Assembly: GCF_900099675.1 (NCBI RefSeq)
Contig: NZ_FNDQ01000004.1
Span: 1 to 64,000 of the forward strand
DNA: 64,000 nt
Direction: 5' to 3'
Origin: Myroides phaeus
GTDB taxonomy: Bacteria; Bacteroidota; Bacteroidia; Flavobacteriales; Flavobacteriaceae
Of the stretch, positions 5,869 to 41,918 are shown piece after piece. The notes beneath the pieces are model-generated. The model searched no databases. It saw only the letters and a list, made by a program, of their open reading frames with translations, and was not told the DNA's origin. The position numbers and the translations under genes were made by a program. Numbering within the stretch: the stretch's first letter is position 1; each line of letters opens with the position of its first letter.

Positions 5869-6744
5869 CTTACTCTCAATTTTTGTCTTAAATACAATCT
5901 TTTAAATAGAAAGAAACTGTTGTCTATTTTAAACAACAAGAATCTAATTAACCAAAACATTGCATTAAACAACAATCGCATTTCAGAGGAAATGGAAACA
6001 CCTTGTACGTACTCTTTTGCTAACAAAGGTTGTACTAAAGGCAATAGGGACTTTATGAAGTCTTAATCACAAATAGGCTTTGGCAATAGGTTCTTACTTC
6101 TATCTTTTTACCTTTTTTCATTATATAGCAACAAACAAGCCAAACATATTTATCCTTAACAGATTTTTATATTTTTTTATTCGTTTGCTTAAAATAATTG
6201 AATTACAACTCAAAAAAACGCTGATATCAAGCCTTTTTTGACCGTAATTACTCAAATGAGTTTGATGTAAAAAAACAGAAATAATTCTATGCAAAAACAT
6301 TAAAGATTATAATTTTCAACACACTGAAAAACAAACATTTAAAACCAAACCCATCCTTAATTATTTCATTATTAAAATTACAAAAAAACAATGAAACCAA
6401 GGGTACAATATGCGAAAAATATTATGTCTTATATAATAAAATAAACTATATTGAAAATTATAAGAAAAACACTCCTTTTTAACTACCTTGCTACTAAAGG
6501 CTTATAAATAGAATAGAAGTTAAAGGTATTATTTAGAATTGTTGTTTTTTTACATTTATTACCTTTTTTTATACTAAAACAACTCTATTTTGTGGTTTTT
6601 TAAGCTCATTATGACGTAGAATGGCACAAAAAAGACTATTCAAAAAAGATATTTATGCGTAAACGCAAGCCTACACCCTCTTATTTCTCTCAAATAGCAT
6701 CTAATACACTTCCTTTATTTGTACTCACAAAGGTATATAAACAC
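5869..6744. other. Long AT-rich intergenic region, no gene seen
   Basis: About 880 bp upstream of the DASS transporter. I found no ORF with coding character, no tRNA and no strong hairpin. A 9-mer GGCAATAGG occurs twice near 6041 and 6081. The length suggests a long leader or regulatory region, but nothing specific can be shown. Confidence 0.4.
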
Positions 6745-6772
6745 AAAACCCTTGTAAAATTACAAGGGTTTT
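6745..6772 (-). terminator. Terminator of the PH-like membrane protein gene
   Basis: Arms AAAACCCTTGTA / TACAAGGGTTTT (12 bp, perfect) enclose a 4-nt loop, 45 bp past the stop of the minus-strand gene at 6817. Confidence 0.8.
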
Positions 6773-6816
6773 GCGTTTATAAAACGTATGTTCAGGAGTA
6801 CATCTCTCCTAAGAAA

Positions 6817-7356
6817 TTATATTTTCGTTAAAGTCAAACTCTCGTTCAACACTTTAAACCATTCGTCACGATCGTTTACTACAAACTTAAACTCATGACC
6901 ATTTATTGTACGTACCAATAAACTATTATTTATAATAAACATCGTCTTTCGTTTTTCTATACTTTCAATTCTATCTAAAGTCAGTTTAGTAGTTCCTGTT
7001 TTTAGATTTTCTTGAAATAATTTAAAAACAAGCTGTTTATTGGTCAAAAACAACTTCCCCTCTAAATTACGAAACAAGTTAGCAACTCCATAGGCTATTA
7101 GCTCTTCACCTTCTTCTAAATCAAGTTCTATTTCTTTGTCAACCTTTTTAGAAAACTTGTTCATTGTAAAATCAAATAATAGAAACCAAAAAATACCAAA
7201 AGAAACAGATTGTATGGCATAAGACCTAAACGTACCTAATTCGTCAAAAATTAAATCTATAACCACTAATGCTATAGCATAAGCCACTATAGTCATAACA
7301 ATAGAAATAGTCTTTGCTAGGAGACTTACCTCAATCTTATCTTTTCCGATCTTCAT
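6817..7356 (-). CDS. Membrane protein with C-terminal GRAM/PH-like domain
   Basis: A 179-aa protein with two membrane helices near residues 14-33 and 42-62. They are followed by a charged linker (KKVDKEIELDLEEGEE) and a beta-rich domain. That domain (VANLFRNLEGKLFLTNKQLVF, residues about 90-112, and a late helix DEWFKVLNESL) has the strand order and 'G.L.LTN..L.F' core of GRAM or bacterial PH domains, which bind membranes or proteins. No enzymatic motif is present. It is a single gene with its own terminator. The fold call is moderate; the function is unknown. Confidence 0.75.
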   Translation of the reverse strand: MKIGKDKIEVSLLAKTISIVMTIVAYAIALVVIDLIFDELGTFRSYAIQSVSFGIFWFLLFDFTMNKFSKKVDKEIELDLEEGEELIAYGVANLFRNLEGKLFLTNKQLVFKLFQENLKTGTTKLTLDRIESIEKRKTMFIINNSLLVRTINGHEFKFVVNDRDEWFKVLNESLTLTKI

Positions 7357-7424
7357 CTTGTTGTGCTTTAGATTTCTTTAACAAATATAAAGAAATACAA
7401 CTATTTAATTTATAATAAAATAGC

Positions 7425-7466
7425 AAAAAAGAGAAGGGATATTCGACATTTCGAACACCCCTTCTC
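7425..7466 (-). terminator. Terminator downstream of the permuted-papain lipoprotein gene
   Basis: GAGAAGGG pairs with CCCTTCTC, with a second inner pairing (TTCGA/TCGAA). The U-tract is on the minus strand (7425-7430). A separate 8-bp hairpin (CGGTGGTT / AACCACCG, 7490-7513) lies between it and the gene. Confidence 0.75.
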
Positions 7467-7553
7467 AAACTTAAAAAACTCAACGTTTTCGGTGGTTTAA
7501 GATATAACCACCGTGATATTTTATACTACAATCAGTAATCCTTGTTTTATAAT

Positions 7554-8162
7554 TTACTCTATTTTTTGGAAAATTGACGCATTGTAAATGTCGTCTAATC
7601 CATAAAAAAGCACTTCTTTGTATTGTAAAGTTGGTCGAATCACTGTCGAATCCAGCGCTTTATTAATACTCATAGCAACTAATTCTGAACAATACAACTT
7701 ATCGTCATTCGCACTGTCAAACTCTAAATCAAATGCTACTTTAGCTTTGTAATACGCTGTAGCTTGACTTACCACTGCTTGTTGTTGTGAAGCGGATAGC
7801 ATATTCGCATAAAAAGCATATGCATCTATATCCTTTAAAAATGCTGTAATTGATTCTCTTAGTACTTCCCCTTGACCAGTGAGTTCGCTTGCTTCAATGT
7901 GAATAACAAATAAACTATCACCTACTTTATCAATCAACCCAATGTGAGAATACTTCTTCTCGTGTGAACCGAGTTTCCTAAAAAAACTGGAAAAATACCC
8001 ATTGCCTTGACGAACAACAATATCTCCTTTATTCAACGTTGCTGGTAGTCGTAAACTATCATCTACTTTCTTAGAAGAAGTACATCCTATGGAAAGCACA
8101 ATAAAAAGCAAATAAAGCCCTTTTAAGCAATTTATTTCTTGCTGTCTATATGTACCAACCAT
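7554..8162 (-). CDS. YiiX/YebB-like permuted papain (NlpC/P60-type) lipoprotein
   Basis: A 202-aa lipoprotein (signal ending IVLSIGC, lipidated Cys about residue 27). The mature part belongs to the permuted papain-like YiiX/YebB family of the NlpC/P60 superfamily. It shows LNKGDIVVRQG (about 44-54), the catalytic-type His in YSHIGLID (about 71-78), and the catalytic-type Cys in KLYCSELVAMSI (about 155-166). Such enzymes are thought to cleave amide bonds in lipids or peptides at the envelope; the substrate here is unknown. The ATG lies inside the upstream DUF4878 gene with a 31-bp overlap, which implies translational coupling. No alternative start preserves the signal peptide. Confidence 0.85.
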   Translation of the reverse strand: MVGTYRQQEINCLKGLYLLFIVLSIGCTSSKKVDDSLRLPATLNKGDIVVRQGNGYFSSFFRKLGSHEKKYSHIGLIDKVGDSLFVIHIEASELTGQGEVLRESITAFLKDIDAYAFYANMLSASQQQAVVSQATAYYKAKVAFDLEFDSANDDKLYCSELVAMSINKALDSTVIRPTLQYKEVLFYGLDDIYNASIFQKIE

Positions 8163-10535: not shown

Positions 10536-11630
10536 TTAAAACAAAGGAATCATCCATCGTACACCAAGTGCTATTTGATGCTCATTTTTATCTGCTGGCT
10601 TTATATCGTATTTCTTGTAATCGTAATTATAGAAGTTATAAGCAGCATATAAGCGTAAGGCTTGAAATGGTGCTTTTTCAAACGGATAGTATTCTACTGC
10701 TGCTGATACTCCTGACAATGCATAGGACACGTTATTGTCTAAATCACTTCTGTAGTTATACATCGCTTTAACAATTGGGGTTAGCTTCTTTGTTTTATAC
10801 TTAAACGTGGCACTGGTTACGTTATCTCGTACGTAGGCTAAACCTGTATCTGGATTATGACTATTTAATTGTACGTCGTTCAAGTTGTAACTTCCATACA
10901 CCCAATCCATCTCTACCATCAACTTGTCAAACGTCAATCGGTTTCCAATTGTAATCCAACTGTAGTATTTCTTGGCATCGTGTTGCATCAACCCATAGCC
11001 ATAACGGGTTTTCAAGTGCTTGTTAAACAACTCTCCTTCCCATAAAAACAATCCTCCGTAAGCTTTGTTTTTATACTCCTCTGCAACGAATTGCTCTCCT
11101 TGTGAGACCACTTGCAATTTATAAGATTGCCCTGCACGTTTATAAGTTACACTCGCTCCGGGACTAAACAACTGAGATGAGGCGATGATATTGGTAAACA
11201 TATACAGCTCAGCACTGTTGTATGATAGCTCGGTTGACCCCCAAGCGATGAATTGTTTACCCGCACTTACGGTCCAATTGTCGTTGATATTATACTCCAA
11301 AAAGGCAAACTCCAAAGCCTTTGATGCAACACTCTCATTTAAACGGTAACGCAATGAATAGGTCAACTTATCGTCGTAAGTTCCCTTTACGTAAACACGC
11401 GATTGCACAGTTCGAAACTTGCTGTCTGAGGTGTTTTGACTGGTGAATTTAGTGTAGTTCTCAAATTTACTGTCTAAAAACACGTCTATTTTATTTTTTC
11501 CTTTACCACCAGAAACTGTTGTAGTGGGGGTTATAGACCCGAATAGCTTTTCTTCTTCTTTCTCAGTTTCTTGTGCGAAAACAGATAGGGAATTAAATAT
11601 GAAAAAGCAAAATAAATACTTAATTCTCAT
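10536..11630 (-). CDS. Outer-membrane beta-barrel porin
   Basis: A 364-aa outer-membrane protein with an N-terminal signal peptide ending SLSVFAQ. The rest alternates short amphipathic strands with aromatic girdles, for example GTYDDKLTYSLRYRLN and YDWKIT-like repeats. It ends in a terminal strand finishing WMIPLF, whose final Phe is typical of BAM-assembled barrels. The segment VSAGKQFIAWGSTELSY (about 115-131) is characteristic of porin families related to DUF1302/OprP-type barrels. Substrate specificity is not readable. It is monocistronic, and the 836-bp region upstream contains a separate promoter-and-terminator RNA unit on the same strand. Confidence 0.8.
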   Translation of the reverse strand: MRIKYLFCFFIFNSLSVFAQETEKEEEKLFGSITPTTTVSGGKGKNKIDVFLDSKFENYTKFTSQNTSDSKFRTVQSRVYVKGTYDDKLTYSLRYRLNESVASKALEFAFLEYNINDNWTVSAGKQFIAWGSTELSYNSAELYMFTNIIASSQLFSPGASVTYKRAGQSYKLQVVSQGEQFVAEEYKNKAYGGLFLWEGELFNKHLKTRYGYGLMQHDAKKYYSWITIGNRLTFDKLMVEMDWVYGSYNLNDVQLNSHNPDTGLAYVRDNVTSATFKYKTKKLTPIVKAMYNYRSDLDNNVSYALSGVSAAVEYYPFEKAPFQALRLYAAYNFYNYDYKKYDIKPADKNEHQIALGVRWMIPLF

Positions 11631-11790
11631 AAATAGGTTAGTTTTAAAAAGTTTAATATACGAAATACCTTGATAGTATTAACATATTTTTATGTTTCTA
11701 AAGTACAGTTTTCACAAATTATAAAGCGCACAAAAGCAAGAGCACTGCAAATACAATGCTTTCGTATGATTACTAAAATTCGTACTACTG

Positions 11791-11832
11791 TAAAATTAAA
11801 GAGGGTAACAATACGAGATTCGTATCTACCTC
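11791..11832 (-). terminator. Terminator of the candidate small RNA
   Basis: Minus-strand stem with outer pairing GAGGTA/TACCCTC (one bulge) and inner ATACGA/TCGTAT around a 3-nt loop, followed by TTTAATTTT. Confidence 0.65.
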
Positions 11833-11993
11833 TTGTGTAGAAGCTTGTTGTATGGGCTTACTACAGGAACCGTGCGCTTGGGTAGAACGCTTACAGATTC
11901 CCAGGGGGTTTAGCTAATTGCGCCATTGTAAAGTTGGGTAAAATAACAGACTCTATGCATCGCATAGTGGGTATAGCCTGCGTAATCTATGTG
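11791..11993 (-). ncRNA. Candidate structured small RNA gene (about 200 nt)
   Basis: A block richer in G/C than its AT-rich surroundings is framed on the minus strand by a near-ideal promoter (TTG-N20-TAGCTTTG, 11997-12027) and an intrinsic terminator (11791-11832). Between them lie CTATGC/GCATAG (11953-11967), a six-pair CCTGGG/CCCAAG-type hairpin (11877-11905), and a long-range pair GCGCCA/TGGCGC (11920-11925 with 11992-11997). The last pair overlaps the promoter edge, so the exact 5' end matters. There is no ORF with coding character. Its length would suit a 6S-type RNA, but I could not match it to a known family. A long porin leader is excluded only if the terminator is efficient. Confidence 0.6.
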
Positions 11994-11996
11994 GCG

Positions 11997-12027
11997 CAAA
12001 GCTACAAATTAAATAGTTTTCTCACAA
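11997..12027 (-). promoter_or_regulatory. Bacteroidota sigma-A promoter for the small RNA
   Basis: On the minus strand TTG (12027-12025) is followed by exactly 20 bases and TAGCTTTG (12004-11997). This is a full match to TTG-N17-23-TAnnTTTG and one of the two best promoters in the window. Confidence 0.7.
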
Positions 12028-12466
12028 TAGAATTGACATTTTGTAACAAAACACCTTTGCTAAGCATACATAAATTGCTCCTAACAAAACAACCTTACCT
12101 TTTACAACCCCCACGTCCAAAAAATAAACAACGTTTATTAGAGCGCATTTATCTCGCTTTTTCTAAAATTATAGTCGCTACTTCATTTAATCCTCCTCTT
12201 TAAGGCTATCGTTCTTACTTGTCGTTCTACAACGCAATGCTCTCAATACACAGGCGTAGATTACCTAAATCAAGCGAAGTTCAACATTAATCGCAATACA
12301 CCGCTTCTTATGTTTAAATAGCCAACTCCTCTAATAAATAACATAAACATTATCAATCCGTATGAAGTGACACAGCGCAATAGCAACACATCTACTTTGA
12401 AAGAATATGCCCTTGATTTTTTCGCTTGTGGAAAATATTCAATATTTTTAAACGAAAATAGACAAT

Positions 12467-12877
12467 ATGCAACGAATAGTATATATCACACTTTTTGCCT
12501 TGTTTACTTCTCTCTCTTTTGGTCAAACAACAGAGGAAGAAGATGGAGTATCTACTGCTTATGAAATCATTTATGTCAACCAAGTGAAATTAGACAAGAA
12601 GGTCTTTTTACAAAATGCTAATCTGTACTATTACGAAGAAGAACACGCCTTTTTATTGGAGGGATTAACAGATAAGCAGACTGTTGGTAAGTGTTTATTT
12701 GAGTACTCACACACTGAAAACGGAAAAGACTACTATGAGTTTTACGACAATGATTATGAGTATATCGACGATGTAGAAAATGGTGTACTTCTATTCAGAA
12801 GTCTCCCTAAAAAAATCAAGAACAGTGAAAATACAATGTATAGAGAGATACGATTAGAAGCAGACAAGACTAAGTAA
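12467..12877 (+). CDS. Secreted hypothetical protein (136 aa)
   Basis: The N-terminus is a clear signal peptide (IVYITLFALFTSLSFG then QTTEEE), so the protein is exported. The mature part is short, acidic and Tyr-rich (NLYYYEEEHAF, DYYEFYDNDYEYIDD), without Cys pairs or a catalytic motif. I do not recognise a family. It is a single gene; the nearest hairpin downstream is about 130 bp away. Confidence 0.7.
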   Translation: MQRIVYITLFALFTSLSFGQTTEEEDGVSTAYEIIYVNQVKLDKKVFLQNANLYYYEEEHAFLLEGLTDKQTVGKCLFEYSHTENGKDYYEFYDNDYEYIDDVENGVLLFRSLPKKIKNSENTMYREIRLEADKTK

Positions 12878-13426
12878 GACTTTTATATCGCTTCATAAAC
12901 AATGCTTTTTTACACCCAATTTCTAAAATAATACCGAAAAGGTATGTTTTATAAATATTTATGTGTATCTTTAAAATGTTGTGTATTAGTATGAATTTTA
13001 ATGAGGAATCACTTTTTATATTTCGATATATTAAGTGATTTTTTTTATGTTTATACTTTTGTATTTATGCCTGAATGATTAACAATACAGCACATCAACT
13101 ACTCAGACTATTTATTTTAGGTCTTATCACTAAAATACTCTTCTTCTTTCAACATACTTATTGCATTGCAAACAAGAATACCTGCTCACAAAGTAAGTTG
13201 TACTAAATCCGAAAACATACAAATCCTATTGCCATTTCCCTATTTTCATTATAGCGAATAGAAAGCATACCAGTTGGATAGAGTACTGTTCACTTGCTAC
13301 TTGGCAGATAGCAATAAATGCTGCCAGACTTTATAATTATTGTACACAGCACACTTCTTCTGTTTCCAAATTAAACAACTGCCGATTACAACATCTATCA
13401 ATCTTTACTTCAACTTAATACAAACA
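12878..13426. other. Intergenic region, no gene seen
   Basis: No coding ORF is visible in this stretch. It contains one terminator-like hairpin on the plus strand (13007-13046). The rest is low-complexity AT-rich sequence. Confidence 0.4.
13007..13046 (+). terminator. Terminator-like hairpin downstream of the 136-aa secreted protein
   Basis: AATCACTT / AAGTGATT arms with an inner A/T pairing are followed by an 8-base T-run on the plus strand. It is 130 bp beyond the nearest stop, so it may end a long 3' UTR or a separate short transcript. Confidence 0.55.
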
Positions 13427-18998: not shown

Positions 18999-19541
18999 AT
19001 GAAAGCTTTAATTTTTAATGGTTCTTTAGACGAAGAAGCATTCCGCACATCGCGACGTATTGCACAGTATTACGCTGATCAATTCACAAAGGCTAACGTA
19101 GAAGTACGACAAGTTCACTTATCAGATTTTCAAATCCCTATATTTCAAGCTAAATTAATGGATAACGTACCACAGACGGTACACAATTTCGCAGACGCTT
19201 TTAGAGAAGCTGATGTAATGATTTGGTTGACCCCACTATATCACGGGGGAATGACAGGGGTTATGAAAAATGCTATTGACTGGCTTGAAATTACAGCAAA
19301 AGATCAACCTGCTTACCTAACGAATAAAGTCGTGGGATTTACTTGTTGGTCTGCTGGAAACCAAGCGATGCAAGGTATTCAAGCGTTAGATAATATTGCT
19401 AAGGCATTGCGCGCTTGGTCATTGCCGTACTCTATCCCAATGAGTAATTCGGACTTATACGAAAACAACGACATTGCGGATGCCTACAAGAAGAAAATGA
19501 GTATGATGGCAAACTTACTAATAGAAAGCCAACAGCGATAA
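18999..19541 (+). CDS. NADPH-dependent FMN reductase family protein
   Basis: A 180-aa flavodoxin-fold oxidoreductase. The FMN phosphate loop reads FNGSLDEEAFRTSRRIAQYY (about 5-24), and LTPLYHGGMTGVMKNAIDWL (about 76-95) is the characteristic FMN-binding segment of the NADPH-dependent FMN reductase family. Such enzymes reduce FMN, quinones or azo compounds using NAD(P)H in the cytoplasm; the physiological acceptor is not readable. It is a single gene with a perfect palindromic terminator starting at its stop codon. Confidence 0.9.
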   Translation: MKALIFNGSLDEEAFRTSRRIAQYYADQFTKANVEVRQVHLSDFQIPIFQAKLMDNVPQTVHNFADAFREADVMIWLTPLYHGGMTGVMKNAIDWLEITAKDQPAYLTNKVVGFTCWSAGNQAMQGIQALDNIAKALRAWSLPYSIPMSNSDLYENNDIADAYKKKMSMMANLLIESQQR

Positions 19542-19581
19542 AAAACAAAGCCCCTATTTGTACAAATAGGGGCTTTGTTTT
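19542..19581. terminator. Perfectly palindromic bidirectional terminator
   Basis: Forty bases form an uninterrupted inverted repeat (centre GT|AC at 19561/19562) with the GC core AAAGCCCCTATTTG. It overlaps the end of the FMN-reductase gene by its first base and has A/T tracts on both sides. Confidence 0.9.
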
Positions 19582-20524
19582 ATCAAAAAAAGAGAAGCAT
19601 CTCCTCTTCTCTTTTGTGAACAATGTAAAATTATATTGGAATTCTTTCCAATTTTAAAACAAGCATTTTTACTTTAATTAGGCACTCTTTCTTGATTTCA
19701 GCTTGTTAGCTTTTGTTTTATACAATTAAACAAACCAAAGAAAGGATCTCATTACTGTAATTAGCTCTTTAACACAGAGTTATTAAGTCTATTATAAAGA
19801 GCTATTACAAAACAGAATATAATTATTCTGGTTCTCTGATGTTGTATAATGTTCATTACAATAAAAAGGAACTACATTTCTTTTACACTGGCTATGTGCT
19901 GAAAAATAATTGTAATAATCATAACTACAAGCTAATCTTTATTTTTTAATTCTTGGGTTGTTTTGTCGTACCTATTTTGTACTTACCAAATGTATTATAG
20001 ATTTACATCACAAACAAATTCAACAACTTACACTAAAAACAAAGCCTTTGCATATCGCGATTTATCAGCCCTTTTAAATTCGCTTTTTTTACTATTCATT
20101 ATTGTTTTATTTGCACTTAAAAATAACTTTATAAAAGAGTTATTATACCAGAGTTATAAATGACCTAATTTTTATGCTATAGATAACCTATTTATACTAT
20201 ATAAAATATAATTTATTCCTGCATACTATGTTAATCTATTTCATTCACAATTTATGATTATAAAAATAATATTTAACAATAATTTAACTTAAATATATTG
20301 TATTAAAACCATTACTACTCCTAAAAAAACCTTTAAAGTGATCTATTAACATAAAAATCACAATTCAAAGACAATACATTGTTTACAAAAAGCGATGCTC
20401 AACTCCTTTTTAAAAGCATTTGTTTTCAAAAAATACGCTTCTAAAAGATAAACATATAAACTACTTTATGAATATTTGTGTACGCTACCTTTTAAAAAAA
20501 GGAGAGCTAAAAACACCCAAAAAG
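19582..20524. other. Long intergenic region, no supported gene
   Basis: About 940 bp of very AT-rich sequence between convergent genes. One short frame (about 57 codons from an ATG near 19990, with one hydrophobic segment) is open. It lacks a ribosome-binding site and codon bias, so I do not call it. No tRNA or strong internal hairpin is seen. Confidence 0.4.
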
Positions 20525-38595: not shown

Positions 38596-38985
38596 TATTT
38601 TAAAGACACTTAACTTAATACAATATACTACTATCTTATTACACAAAACACCACAAATCAAAGCATTATGGTTTCACACAGAGTACTTATCCTATTTATA
38701 CAGCTTTCTTTACTACTACTATTAAATCTATAACATTGTGACTAATTGTCAAATAAACACAAATCAACTCTTGCGTCATATTTCCCATATTTACCTTTAC
38801 ATCAGAAATATTCTGAAATATGGAAGTTTCTATTTTTTCCTTTTTTTAATGTCTAACCGATTGACCAACTACGCCAATAAACACAAATCAACTCTTGCGT
38901 CATAATTCCCATATTTACCTTTACTTCAGAAATATTCTGAAATATGGAAATTTCACAAACAACTACCACAATCCCTTAAGACCAC
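38596..38985. repeat. Intergenic region with a pair of 79-bp direct repeats
   Basis: Two copies of a 79-bp unit (38752-38830 and 38876-38954) differ at about three positions. Each ends in a nested inverted repeat: CCATATTT/AAATATGG around TTCAG/CTGAA (38908-38946 in copy 2; copy 1 has a G-side change). Between them, at 38851-38877, the minus strand reads like a tRNA D-arm (GTAGTTGGTCAATCGGTTAG), but no complete tRNA is present. No ORF. Confidence 0.8.
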
Positions 38986-39018
38986 AAAAAAAGAGGAGCT
39001 ATTACTAACTCCTCTTTT
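38986..39018 (-). terminator. Terminator of the GH3/serine hydrolase gene
   Basis: AAAAGAGGAG / CTCCTCTTTT arms (10 bp) with a 10-nt loop and a U-tract on the minus strand. Confidence 0.88.
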
Positions 39019-39038
39019 CTCTATAATCTTGTAAATAA

Positions 39039-41918
39039 CTATTTCACGATTGACTCGTAAATAACAGTCTGAATATTTTCTCTAACGTTTTCTTTAGACA
39101 GCCTATTTGTTGTTGCATCCGGATAAGTACGGTTGGCCAAGAAGATATAAACTAAATCTTTCTCTGGATCTGCCCACGCCATTGTTCCTGTAAACCCAGT
39201 ATGTCCAAAACTTGTCATAGACACACAACCACATGTTGGTCCTGGTTTACCTGCTGGTTGTGGTTTGTCAAAACCAATTCCTCTTCTACTTCCTGCTTCA
39301 CAATAAACACAGTCGTTAAACGTGTCAAATGTTGATTTAGAAAAGAAACGCTCTCCTCCATATTCTCCTTCATTCAAGTACATCTGCATTACCTTTGCCA
39401 CATCCAACGCTGAACCAAACAATCCTGCGTGTCCTGCTACTCCTCCTTGCATTGCCGCTCCCATATCGTGAACGTATCCTTGTACTGTTGTATAGCGATA
39501 GTAATTGTCAACTTCCGTTGGTGGGATTGACTCAATATCAAACTTTTGCAATGGTAAGTAAGTCAAATGTGTAATTCCCATTTTTAAGAAAAACTCGTCT
39601 TGAATTACCTTGTCTAACGGACTATTGTACTTCGATTCGATAAATTCTTTCAACGAAATAAACCCTAAGTCACTGTACTTATAGTCTTTCTTCTTTGCTA
39701 AGGGCGACTCTGCTATTTGCTTTAAGATTTCGTTGGTGTACCCTTTTTTAATGAATAAATTCTCTGATACTTGCGTAGGATAATCTGGCGTATAAAAATA
39801 ACTGTACAAACTAACGTCTGGTTTTTTATTCTCATCTAACGTACGTTTGTAAAACGGAATCCACGCTGGTAACCCAGATTGGTGAGTCAACAAATCTCTG
39901 AATGTTATATTCGCTTTGTCTGTACCTTTAAACGCAGGTACCATATTACCCAACTTTGACTCCATCGTAACCTTGTGTTGGTCGTACATCTTAATTAAAA
40001 TAGGTAAACTACCCAATATCTTCGTTAAGGATGCTAAATCATACAAGTCGGTGTCCTTTACTGCTGTTGTTTTATCATACGTATGGTAACCAAACGACTT
40101 TTGATAAACAACGTTTCCGTGTCTGGCAACCAATATCTGCATCCCTGGTGTTAGCTCTCTTTCGATAGCACGCAAGGCAATACTATCAATCTTTGCCAAC
40201 ACAGCTGGGTCCATCCCTTCATTTGCCGGACTTGAAAACCCCAAGCGTTGGATTGGCTTAGTCTTAATACCTGTTTCTACTTCATACTGACTATTAATAG
40301 ACACAGGCAACTTCCCTTTTGATCCAATTGCTCCAAATACCACTTGTGCAGCAGCTTTGTGTGCAAATGCGTTGTTCTGATAACCAATCACAACTGTTTT
40401 TATACCGTTAAACGTAGGCAAACCAGATAAAGCATATGGTTTTGCAAAAGACACCAATACCGTATTTGTTTTCTTAGCTATAGCTGCAATCTGTTGTTTC
40501 TCCTCATTTGAGAAGTTGTGATTACGCCAAGGGTTGTCTACTTTATGGTAACCAATCACGATAGTCGAAAACTTACTGATTTCATCTAAATCTGTTGGAT
40601 CAACTTTACGCACATCTGCATAGTTCTTCAACATCTCTAAAAATGTACTACCATCGTCATCTCCTAACTTCACATACCCGATACGTTGTTTTTCTAAGTG
40701 TTTAAATGGGATTAACTTATCGTCATTCTTAACAACAGTTATCGCCTCGTTATACAACTTTTGGTTTAAATCATCATATTCAGCCCCGTTTAAGTCTGCC
40801 ACTAAAGTTGTTGTATCAATGGGTTCAAACTTAGTCATATTCGACTTAAACTTGTATTCTAATATCTTCTTAACTGAATAGGCTAAACGCTGTTCAGTGA
40901 TTTCTCCTTTACTATATGCCTCTTTAATTTTTGTCAACGCAGTAGGTACGTCTTCAGAAAACAACAGTAAATCATTTCCTGCATTAAACGCAGCTAAGTC
41001 TACTTCCCCTGGTTTCAGATAGTTTGATGCCCCTTTCATATTCAAAGCATCAGTAAAAATCAACCCTTCAAAGCCCATTTCTTCTCTTAACAACTTGGTT
41101 ACGATATTATAAGAAAGTGAACTTGGTACATTGCTATCTGGTTCGTACGCAGGAATATTCAAGTGAGCAACCATAACACTTGACAAGTCGTTGTCAAACA
41201 TCTTCTTATATGGCCACAACTCTACTTTGTTTAATCTACCTTTATCGTGGTTGATTACAGGTAGTTTGTGATGTGAGTCAGTCGATGTATCTCCGTGTCC
41301 AGGAAAGTGTTTACCTGTTGCAAATACATTCTGACTTTGGTATCCTTTCGTAAAAGCAATCGCTCTATCCGTAACTATCTCACGTGTTTCTCCGTAAGAA
41401 CGCACACCAATAATTGGGTTTTGCGGATTGATATTAATGTCTAATACCGGACCAAAGTTAAACTGCAAACCTAAGCGTTTTGCTTGTTTTGCCATAGCAA
41501 CACCTAACTCTTCTATCAGATCCATATTTTGCACTGCTCCCAATGTCATATTGTACGGAAACTTGTATGTCGAATCTAAACGCATACTTAATCCCCATTC
41601 ACCATCAATACCAATTAGCATAGGCAGTGTACTCATACTTTGTAAGCGATTAGTCATATTCGCTTGTCGCACTGGACCACCTTGAAAAAAGATAAGTCCC
41701 CCTATATGTTGCTCTGTTACTAACTTTTCTAAACTTTGTGTGTGTGCTTCATTCTTGTTTGAATAAGCCGCCACCATAAACAATTGGCCAATGCGCTGCT
41801 CTAAACTAAGCGTATTATAAACGCTGTCAACCCATTGCGTTTGCCTAACCTTATCAACGGTTTTCTGTCCCATAGCAGTTGACGCTGCCATAAGTAGTAA
41901 TAATGTGAGTTTTTTCAT
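39039..41918 (-). CDS. Glycoside hydrolase family 3 / beta-lactamase-fold fusion
   Basis: A 959-aa exported enzyme (signal KKLTLLLLMAASTAMG). Residues about 30-360 are a GH3 N-terminal domain like NagZ, with the catalytic loop ATGKHFPGHGDTSTDSHHKL (about 201-220) and Asp nucleophile in IFTDALNMKG (about 288-297). A GH3-C-like domain follows (about 390-560). Residues about 590-955 form a class C beta-lactamase/serine hydrolase domain, with SLTK as the SxxK nucleophile motif (about 632-635) and a Tyr motif near YSDLG. The fusion suggests removal of GlcNAc and cleavage of peptides or esters on peptidoglycan fragments in the periplasm. Such fusions are common in Bacteroidota. Monocistronic. Confidence 0.92.
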   Translation of the reverse strand: MKKLTLLLLMAASTAMGQKTVDKVRQTQWVDSVYNTLSLEQRIGQLFMVAAYSNKNEAHTQSLEKLVTEQHIGGLIFFQGGPVRQANMTNRLQSMSTLPMLIGIDGEWGLSMRLDSTYKFPYNMTLGAVQNMDLIEELGVAMAKQAKRLGLQFNFGPVLDININPQNPIIGVRSYGETREIVTDRAIAFTKGYQSQNVFATGKHFPGHGDTSTDSHHKLPVINHDKGRLNKVELWPYKKMFDNDLSSVMVAHLNIPAYEPDSNVPSSLSYNIVTKLLREEMGFEGLIFTDALNMKGASNYLKPGEVDLAAFNAGNDLLLFSEDVPTALTKIKEAYSKGEITEQRLAYSVKKILEYKFKSNMTKFEPIDTTTLVADLNGAEYDDLNQKLYNEAITVVKNDDKLIPFKHLEKQRIGYVKLGDDDGSTFLEMLKNYADVRKVDPTDLDEISKFSTIVIGYHKVDNPWRNHNFSNEEKQQIAAIAKKTNTVLVSFAKPYALSGLPTFNGIKTVVIGYQNNAFAHKAAAQVVFGAIGSKGKLPVSINSQYEVETGIKTKPIQRLGFSSPANEGMDPAVLAKIDSIALRAIERELTPGMQILVARHGNVVYQKSFGYHTYDKTTAVKDTDLYDLASLTKILGSLPILIKMYDQHKVTMESKLGNMVPAFKGTDKANITFRDLLTHQSGLPAWIPFYKRTLDENKKPDVSLYSYFYTPDYPTQVSENLFIKKGYTNEILKQIAESPLAKKKDYKYSDLGFISLKEFIESKYNSPLDKVIQDEFFLKMGITHLTYLPLQKFDIESIPPTEVDNYYRYTTVQGYVHDMGAAMQGGVAGHAGLFGSALDVAKVMQMYLNEGEYGGERFFSKSTFDTFNDCVYCEAGSRRGIGFDKPQPAGKPGPTCGCVSMTSFGHTGFTGTMAWADPEKDLVYIFLANRTYPDATTNRLSKENVRENIQTVIYESIVK

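Follow-up and report, generated by a model that had tools for sequence, protein, structure and literature searches.

The DNA analysed here (the window) is a stretch of 64,000 nucleotides from a draft genome of Myroides phaeus (G000), which totals 2.97 Mb in 58 contigs. The candidate element lies between the gene of a porin belonging to the Pfam family Porin_O_P and a divergent gene coding for a 136-aa protein, on the same strand as the porin and 160 nt 5′ of it (Table 1). The 136-aa protein has no Pfam match. Its gene differs from its counterpart in the related genome G241 at 8 of 36 fourfold sites, and distant relatives of the protein are present in G020, G181, and G319. Alignment of the porin over the named genomes yielded eight loci, five of them named Myroides, while a single-protein scan of the named genomes found nothing. 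Elsewhere in the source genome, a paralogous porin (L050, contig C47) is preceded by a long upstream region (~440 nt) with promoter-like and hairpin sequence. By eye, this region resembles its G241 counterpart, L042, and no similarity to the candidate element was seen in it.

Table 1. Features of the locus, with positions in the window.
Feature	Position	Strand	Basis or remark
Porin gene	10536–11630	−	Pfam match, Porin_O_P
Strongly conserved block	11631–12059	−	G000 versus G241 alignment; sharp upstream edge at 12059/12060
19-nt block just 5′ of the porin ATG	11642–11660	−	common to some Myroides porins lacking the element
Second terminator-like hairpin, downstream	11741–11760	−	simple terminator scan
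Predicted small RNA, ~203 nt	11790–11992	−	promoter and terminator
Terminator-like hairpin and U-rich tail, UUUAAUUUU (UUUUAUUUU in G241)	11791–11834	−	predicted fold
Inverted repeat TAGCTTTGCGCCA ... TGGCGCAATTAGCTA	11911–12004	−	arms 12004–11992 and 11925–11911
Predicted sigma-A promoter	11997–12027	−	TTG 12027–12025, 20-nt spacer, TAGCTTTG 12004–11997
Near-perfect palindrome TTTTGTAACAAAA (as read on the + strand), 5′ of the promoter	12039–12051		≤1 mismatch
136-aa protein gene	12467–12877	+	signal-peptide-like start (by eye)
Short conserved element, probable small RNA of ~70 nt	12965–13046	+	promoter-like box, near-invariant stretch, terminator hairpin

An earlier reading of the locus, made from the letters alone (the sequence-only reading), had proposed a structured small RNA gene on the minus strand, headed by a TTG-N20-TAGCTTTG promoter. 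A check of the sequence found this promoter at 12027–11997, and its consensus and spacing are identical in G241. On its own the promoter pattern is uninformative, since it is no commoner than expected by chance (six occurrences in the window versus a mean of 9.1, sd 3.5, in shuffled sequences). Among eight loci picked for matching the promoter segment, TTTAATTTGTA was seen by eye in seven. At L006, L018, L028, L029, and L032, a promoter-like stretch is followed by an ATG within ~40 nt, again as judged by eye. Such stretches before ATGs elsewhere in the genus may be taken as support for the promoter, not as proof of it, because at least one match, that at L014, appears by eye to fall inside coding sequence. 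The flavobacterial −7 box spans positions −12 to −5, as stated in PMC9723704, and the start site is therefore placed at ~11992. The palindrome 5′ of the promoter is one of two places in the window that fit its pattern with no more than one mismatch; it lies at the margin of the conserved block, where G000 and G241 do not differ, and may be a site for a regulator.

From position 11992, a transcript of ~203 nt is predicted. The G+C content of 11791–12000 is 0.43, in line with the earlier description of a body of about 200 nt less AT-rich than its surroundings. Several hairpins were also found as described, including a terminator-like one with a U-rich tail. The stem of the latter is interrupted, its predicted energy is −11.6 kcal/mol both in the window and in G241 (equal spans), and its U-run is longer in G241. 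This hairpin is absent from the output of a simple terminator scan, which detected two terminator-like sites between 10000 and 14000, against a mean of 2.0 in shuffled sequences. The downstream hairpin is a possible back-up end. As the sequence-only reading had noted, no open reading frame of 30 aa or more lies fully within the element on the minus strand; the frames inside it are 24 and 29 aa long, and a 32-aa frame merely touches its edge. On the plus strand, an 89-aa frame (11934–12203) contains three stops in G241. Thus, we found no coding explanation on either strand, though peptides shorter than 30 aa could be accommodated.

The strongest evidence for the element is its conservation, which is well beyond chance. 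The G241 copy of the element is 98% identical. Across the conserved block, which extends from 12059 to 11631, the two genomes differ at 6 of 429 positions; the predicted transcript differs at 4 of 203 positions, and segment 12000–12059 does not differ at all. By comparison, segment 12060–12399 contains 54 mismatches and 11 gap columns (~16% divergence, with gaps), and the fourfold sites of 11 neighbouring genes differ in 105 of 814 cases (12.9%). The binomial probability of four or fewer differences in 203 positions is 2.5e-8 at the latter rate, and 6.5e-6 if 10% is assumed instead. The constraint starts abruptly 32 nt 5′ of the −33 box, at an edge that coincides with the palindrome. Since it runs on continuously from 12059 to the porin ATG, the 3′ end of the RNA cannot be read from it. 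The low divergence might also stem from recent transfer or gene conversion. The conservation in close relatives that the sequence-only reading had asked for was found in a single genome, G241.

The distribution of the element is correspondingly narrow. In a DNA search of 398 genomes of the genus, the full element was present in G000 and G241 only, among the matches listed; some match at E ≤1 was obtained for 351 of the 398 genomes, all others among those listed being 47 nt or shorter. A search of 60 relatives returned the full element from G000 alone, plus one 38-nt match in G020. Covariance model R1 likewise matched only G000 and G241 in a set of 397 genomes of the same genus (an overlapping draw with stricter filters, each genome ≥99% complete), and 2 of 8 porin-bearing genomes when matches with E up to 10 were allowed, the six others giving no match. 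The element is single copy in its own genome, where the next match is 19 nt long (E 0.3). A plasmid search gave two 26-nt matches to Shewanella plasmids (E 0.2), one of which was inspected and lies inside a hypothetical gene; a phage search gave no match, and viral contigs contained no match to two exact patterns. A 33-nt segment from the 3′ end (11818–11786 on the minus strand, query positions 203–235) has 82% matches in no fewer than 21 further genomes of the genus, with E values of ~0.03–0.08 each; L030 was inspected, and no gene or element was recognised there.

The fold of the element depends strongly on where the RNA begins. The sequence-only reading had cautioned that a long-range pair overlaps the promoter edge, and this caveat turned out to be right and decisive. 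With the promoter included (11785–12004), the fold has a z-score of −4.54, and 0 of 200 shuffles were as good. When the fold was started at 11996, which is near a realistic 5′ end, the z-score was −2.45, and 2 of 200 shuffles were as good; a start at 11992 gave −2.71 (60 shuffles). The drop in z-score from −4.5 to ~−2.5 is due to the long stem, which draws on bases that lie at the start site or 5′ of it. The first arm of the inverted repeat begins with the −7 box and ends at the predicted start site, and the stem can therefore hardly form in the transcript. The repeat is only mildly unusual, since G+C-rich arms that pair exactly over 8 bp at a comparable distance are found in 10 of 532 windows and in 2.55% of shuffles.

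The promoter-included fold is strong, yet it is unexceptional in the window and register-dependent. Among 608 grid windows scored with 14 shuffles each, 22 had z-scores below −4, and the two grid windows covering the element on its strand scored −1.01 (11761) and −0.35 (11971). When the 30 grid windows with the lowest z-scores were rescored with 60 shuffles, together with 11791–12000 on either strand, the minus strand of 11791–12000 (z −4.35) ranked 12th of the 32. Stronger folds, with z-scores of ~−5.7 to −6.9 (60 shuffles), were seen at 19531–19740, 38851–39060, 6721–6930, 7351–7560, and 6091–6300. In the two available sequences, G000 and G241, none of the 67 predicted pairs shows changes on both sides. 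One predicted pair shifts from U-G to U-A, and for the transcript the four differences are enough to give G241 another predicted optimal fold. The sequence-only reading overrated the structure: its word structured has only weak support for the real transcript, whose z-score is ~−2.5 and whose predicted fold differs in G241. Structure is, at best, supporting evidence.

The location of the element would suit a long 5′ leader of the porin, in which transcription reads through into the porin unless the hairpin at 11834–11791 stops it, as in an attenuator or a riboswitch of a new kind. The shared strand and short distance, the constraint unbroken from 12059 to the ATG, and the second hairpin at 11760–11741 are all consistent with such an arrangement. 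We nevertheless consider it rather unlikely. The element is absent before the porin orthologs at L036, L037, L038, L054, L057, and L060; none of the seven porin upstream regions inspected by eye, out of eight, shows it; and over loci L036–L061 blastn gave matches of no more than 23 nt, and nhmmer none. The 19-nt block just 5′ of the porin ATG is found with 100% identity at L060 and L038, and with 95% identity at L057, and is probably part of the porin's own promoter. That Myroides porin orthologs occur without the element, and that three of them keep the block next to the ATG, speaks for a unit of its own rather than a leader of the porin. Further, no riboswitch family matches, and no similarity was detected before two other porins of the same genome, with permissive scoring that excludes strong similarity only. 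The element is thus probably not a cis-acting leader or riboswitch, which should accompany the porin orthologs: it was not seen at the six loci, and six other porin-bearing genomes had no match to R1.

The stretch might also be conserved as DNA, as an extensive control region at which proteins bind to regulate the porin, with no separate RNA being made. The constraint does extend beyond the predicted RNA, and the palindrome as well as the inverted repeat could be protein sites. This alternative appears improbable to us, given that a promoter and a terminator-like hairpin stand in the correct order on one strand, and that the minus strand of 11791–12000, a stretch that takes in some of the promoter, has the better fold (z −4.35 versus −0.81 for the plus strand). 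Moreover, ~430 nt would be unusually long for a control region. The stretch could, in principle, hold a gene for a short protein, or what is left of a protein gene, for frame 11965–11891 reads ILPNFTMAQLAKPPG, like the start of a protein at L007 that we take to be DinB-like, and a 44-nt query segment has 79% DNA identity to L007 (E 0.0014, one genome). We regard this as very improbable. In searches of 398 genomes, chance alone should produce an E-value of this size roughly every second time, and a query segment almost identical to this one matched a different, unrelated frame at L002. Neither the 24-aa nor the 29-aa frame matches Pfam at E values up to 10, and the sole change in the 24-aa frame relative to G241 alters the amino acid (Asn to Ser). 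The likeness to DinB was accordingly judged to be due to chance.

The element is best read as a stand-alone, lineage-specific intergenic small RNA gene, known to date from two Myroides-like genomes that are close relatives, a reading to which we assign a probability of about 0.6. It is preferred because of the promoter, the conserved body, the terminator-like end, and the absence of the element before other Myroides porins; the same proposal in the sequence-only reading is partly supported, with conservation in one relative only. The hint at 6S RNA, a stand-alone RNA to which the element had been likened by its size, is not supported. The 6S-Flavo model (RF01685) comprises 108 positions as opposed to the ~203 nt of the element, gave no covariance-model match to the element up to E 10, and identified the 6S-Flavo RNA of this genome on another contig (G000:C19:78522–78629, 96.5 bits). 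The Rfam/Infernal search that had been proposed, covering 6S-Flavo and riboswitches, revealed no family that fits: at the gathering threshold of Rfam 15 there was no match in the window, and for 11650–12150 the sole match up to E 10 was ceN22 (15.9 versus 45 bits), outside the element.

Small RNA genes of this kind have been catalogued in other members of the phylum. PMC9723704 lists 85 newly described independent RNAs in Flavobacterium psychrophilum, with a median length of 176 bp and 40 of them antisense, and PMC7366714 lists 124 intergenic small RNA candidates in Bacteroides thetaiotaomicron, 49 of them high-confidence. GibS and FopS of the latter species are trans-acting small RNAs of the phylum, which are mostly intergenic, and FopS RNAs repress the mRNA of an outer-membrane transporter, SusC (PMC11697453 and PMC7366714). 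Small RNAs of such promoter type and size are ordinary in the phylum, and the element would add one more. Like the Rfp RNAs of F. psychrophilum (for example, Rfp18), which are described in PMC9723704 as non-coding units of their own, of ~176 bp and with a sigma-A −7 box, the element appears to be an independent unit. It differs in distribution, Rfp18 being reported to be conserved widely within its genus (PMC9723704) and the element being found in two genomes only. The likeness to GibS and FopS lies in the predicted trans-acting, intergenic nature of the RNA, whereas FopS RNAs are ~65–70 nt long and have 14 members (PMC11697453 and PMC7366714), and the element is ~203 nt long and single copy. 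By copy number, membership in the GibS/FopS family is not supported, since that family, whose members share a 5′ seed, is multicopy.

To our knowledge, few flavobacterial small RNAs have a known role, and among the titles listed by a literature search none dealt with small RNAs of Myroides. For the element, we propose that sigma-A RNA polymerase would start at ~11992 on the minus strand and stop at the hairpin and U-rich tail near 11791, with the conserved palindrome a little 5′ of the promoter as a possible binding site for a regulator. With less confidence, the RNA may act in trans, base-pairing with mRNAs through exposed C-rich stretches. The word UACCC occurs four times in the RNA, beginning at 11973, 11940, 11884, and 11807, and the first three copies are unpaired in the fold predicted from 11996. 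For this word, the probability of four or more copies is 0.0012, while 7.8% of shuffles contain at least one 5-mer in four copies; the enrichment was noticed post hoc, and a role for it is only suggestive. The porin was rejected as a direct target, since its start region is not a favoured partner: it ranked 50th of 55 start regions by predicted duplex, with the second porin 31st and the divergent 136-aa gene 14th, in a ranking based on crude energies without accessibility that covered the start regions of one window and one paralog. Located 67 nt into the predicted transcript, UGGCGCAAUUAGCUA is largely complementary to the part of the element's promoter that spans the −7 box and reaches the start site. 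It is conceivable, if highly speculative, that the RNA feeds back by pairing of UGGCGCAAUUAGCUA with the opened promoter strand, while the UACCC copies bind an RNA-binding protein, which would make it a self-limiting sponge RNA. If the stand-alone small RNA reading is true, a constrained lineage-specific RNA beside a surface porin would offer a way into the study of post-transcriptional control among bacteria described in PMC6847099 as being without Shine-Dalgarno sequences; general ideas would not change.

A second candidate was recognised on the plus strand, at 12965–13046. An exact pattern derived for it occurs in 5 of 299 genomes (G000, G241, G146, G181, and G319), and the element is also present at the named loci L054, L057, and L060. 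Its promoter-like box reads TATCTTTA, with TACCTTTA in G241 and TACATTTA at L036. No Rfam family fits it. In an alignment of seven sequences, all 103 cells pair and two pairs change on both sides, the structure used for covariation having been drawn from the same seven sequences. Its covariation score was reached by 12 of 500 shuffles, its count of pairs changed on both sides by 136, and its count of pair types by 379; the covariation is therefore modest. The position of this element, upstream of and divergent to the porin, is kept in Myroides odoratimimus, M. marinus, M. sp. N17-2, and others, and the element is a probable small RNA, conserved more widely than the candidate at 11790–11992.
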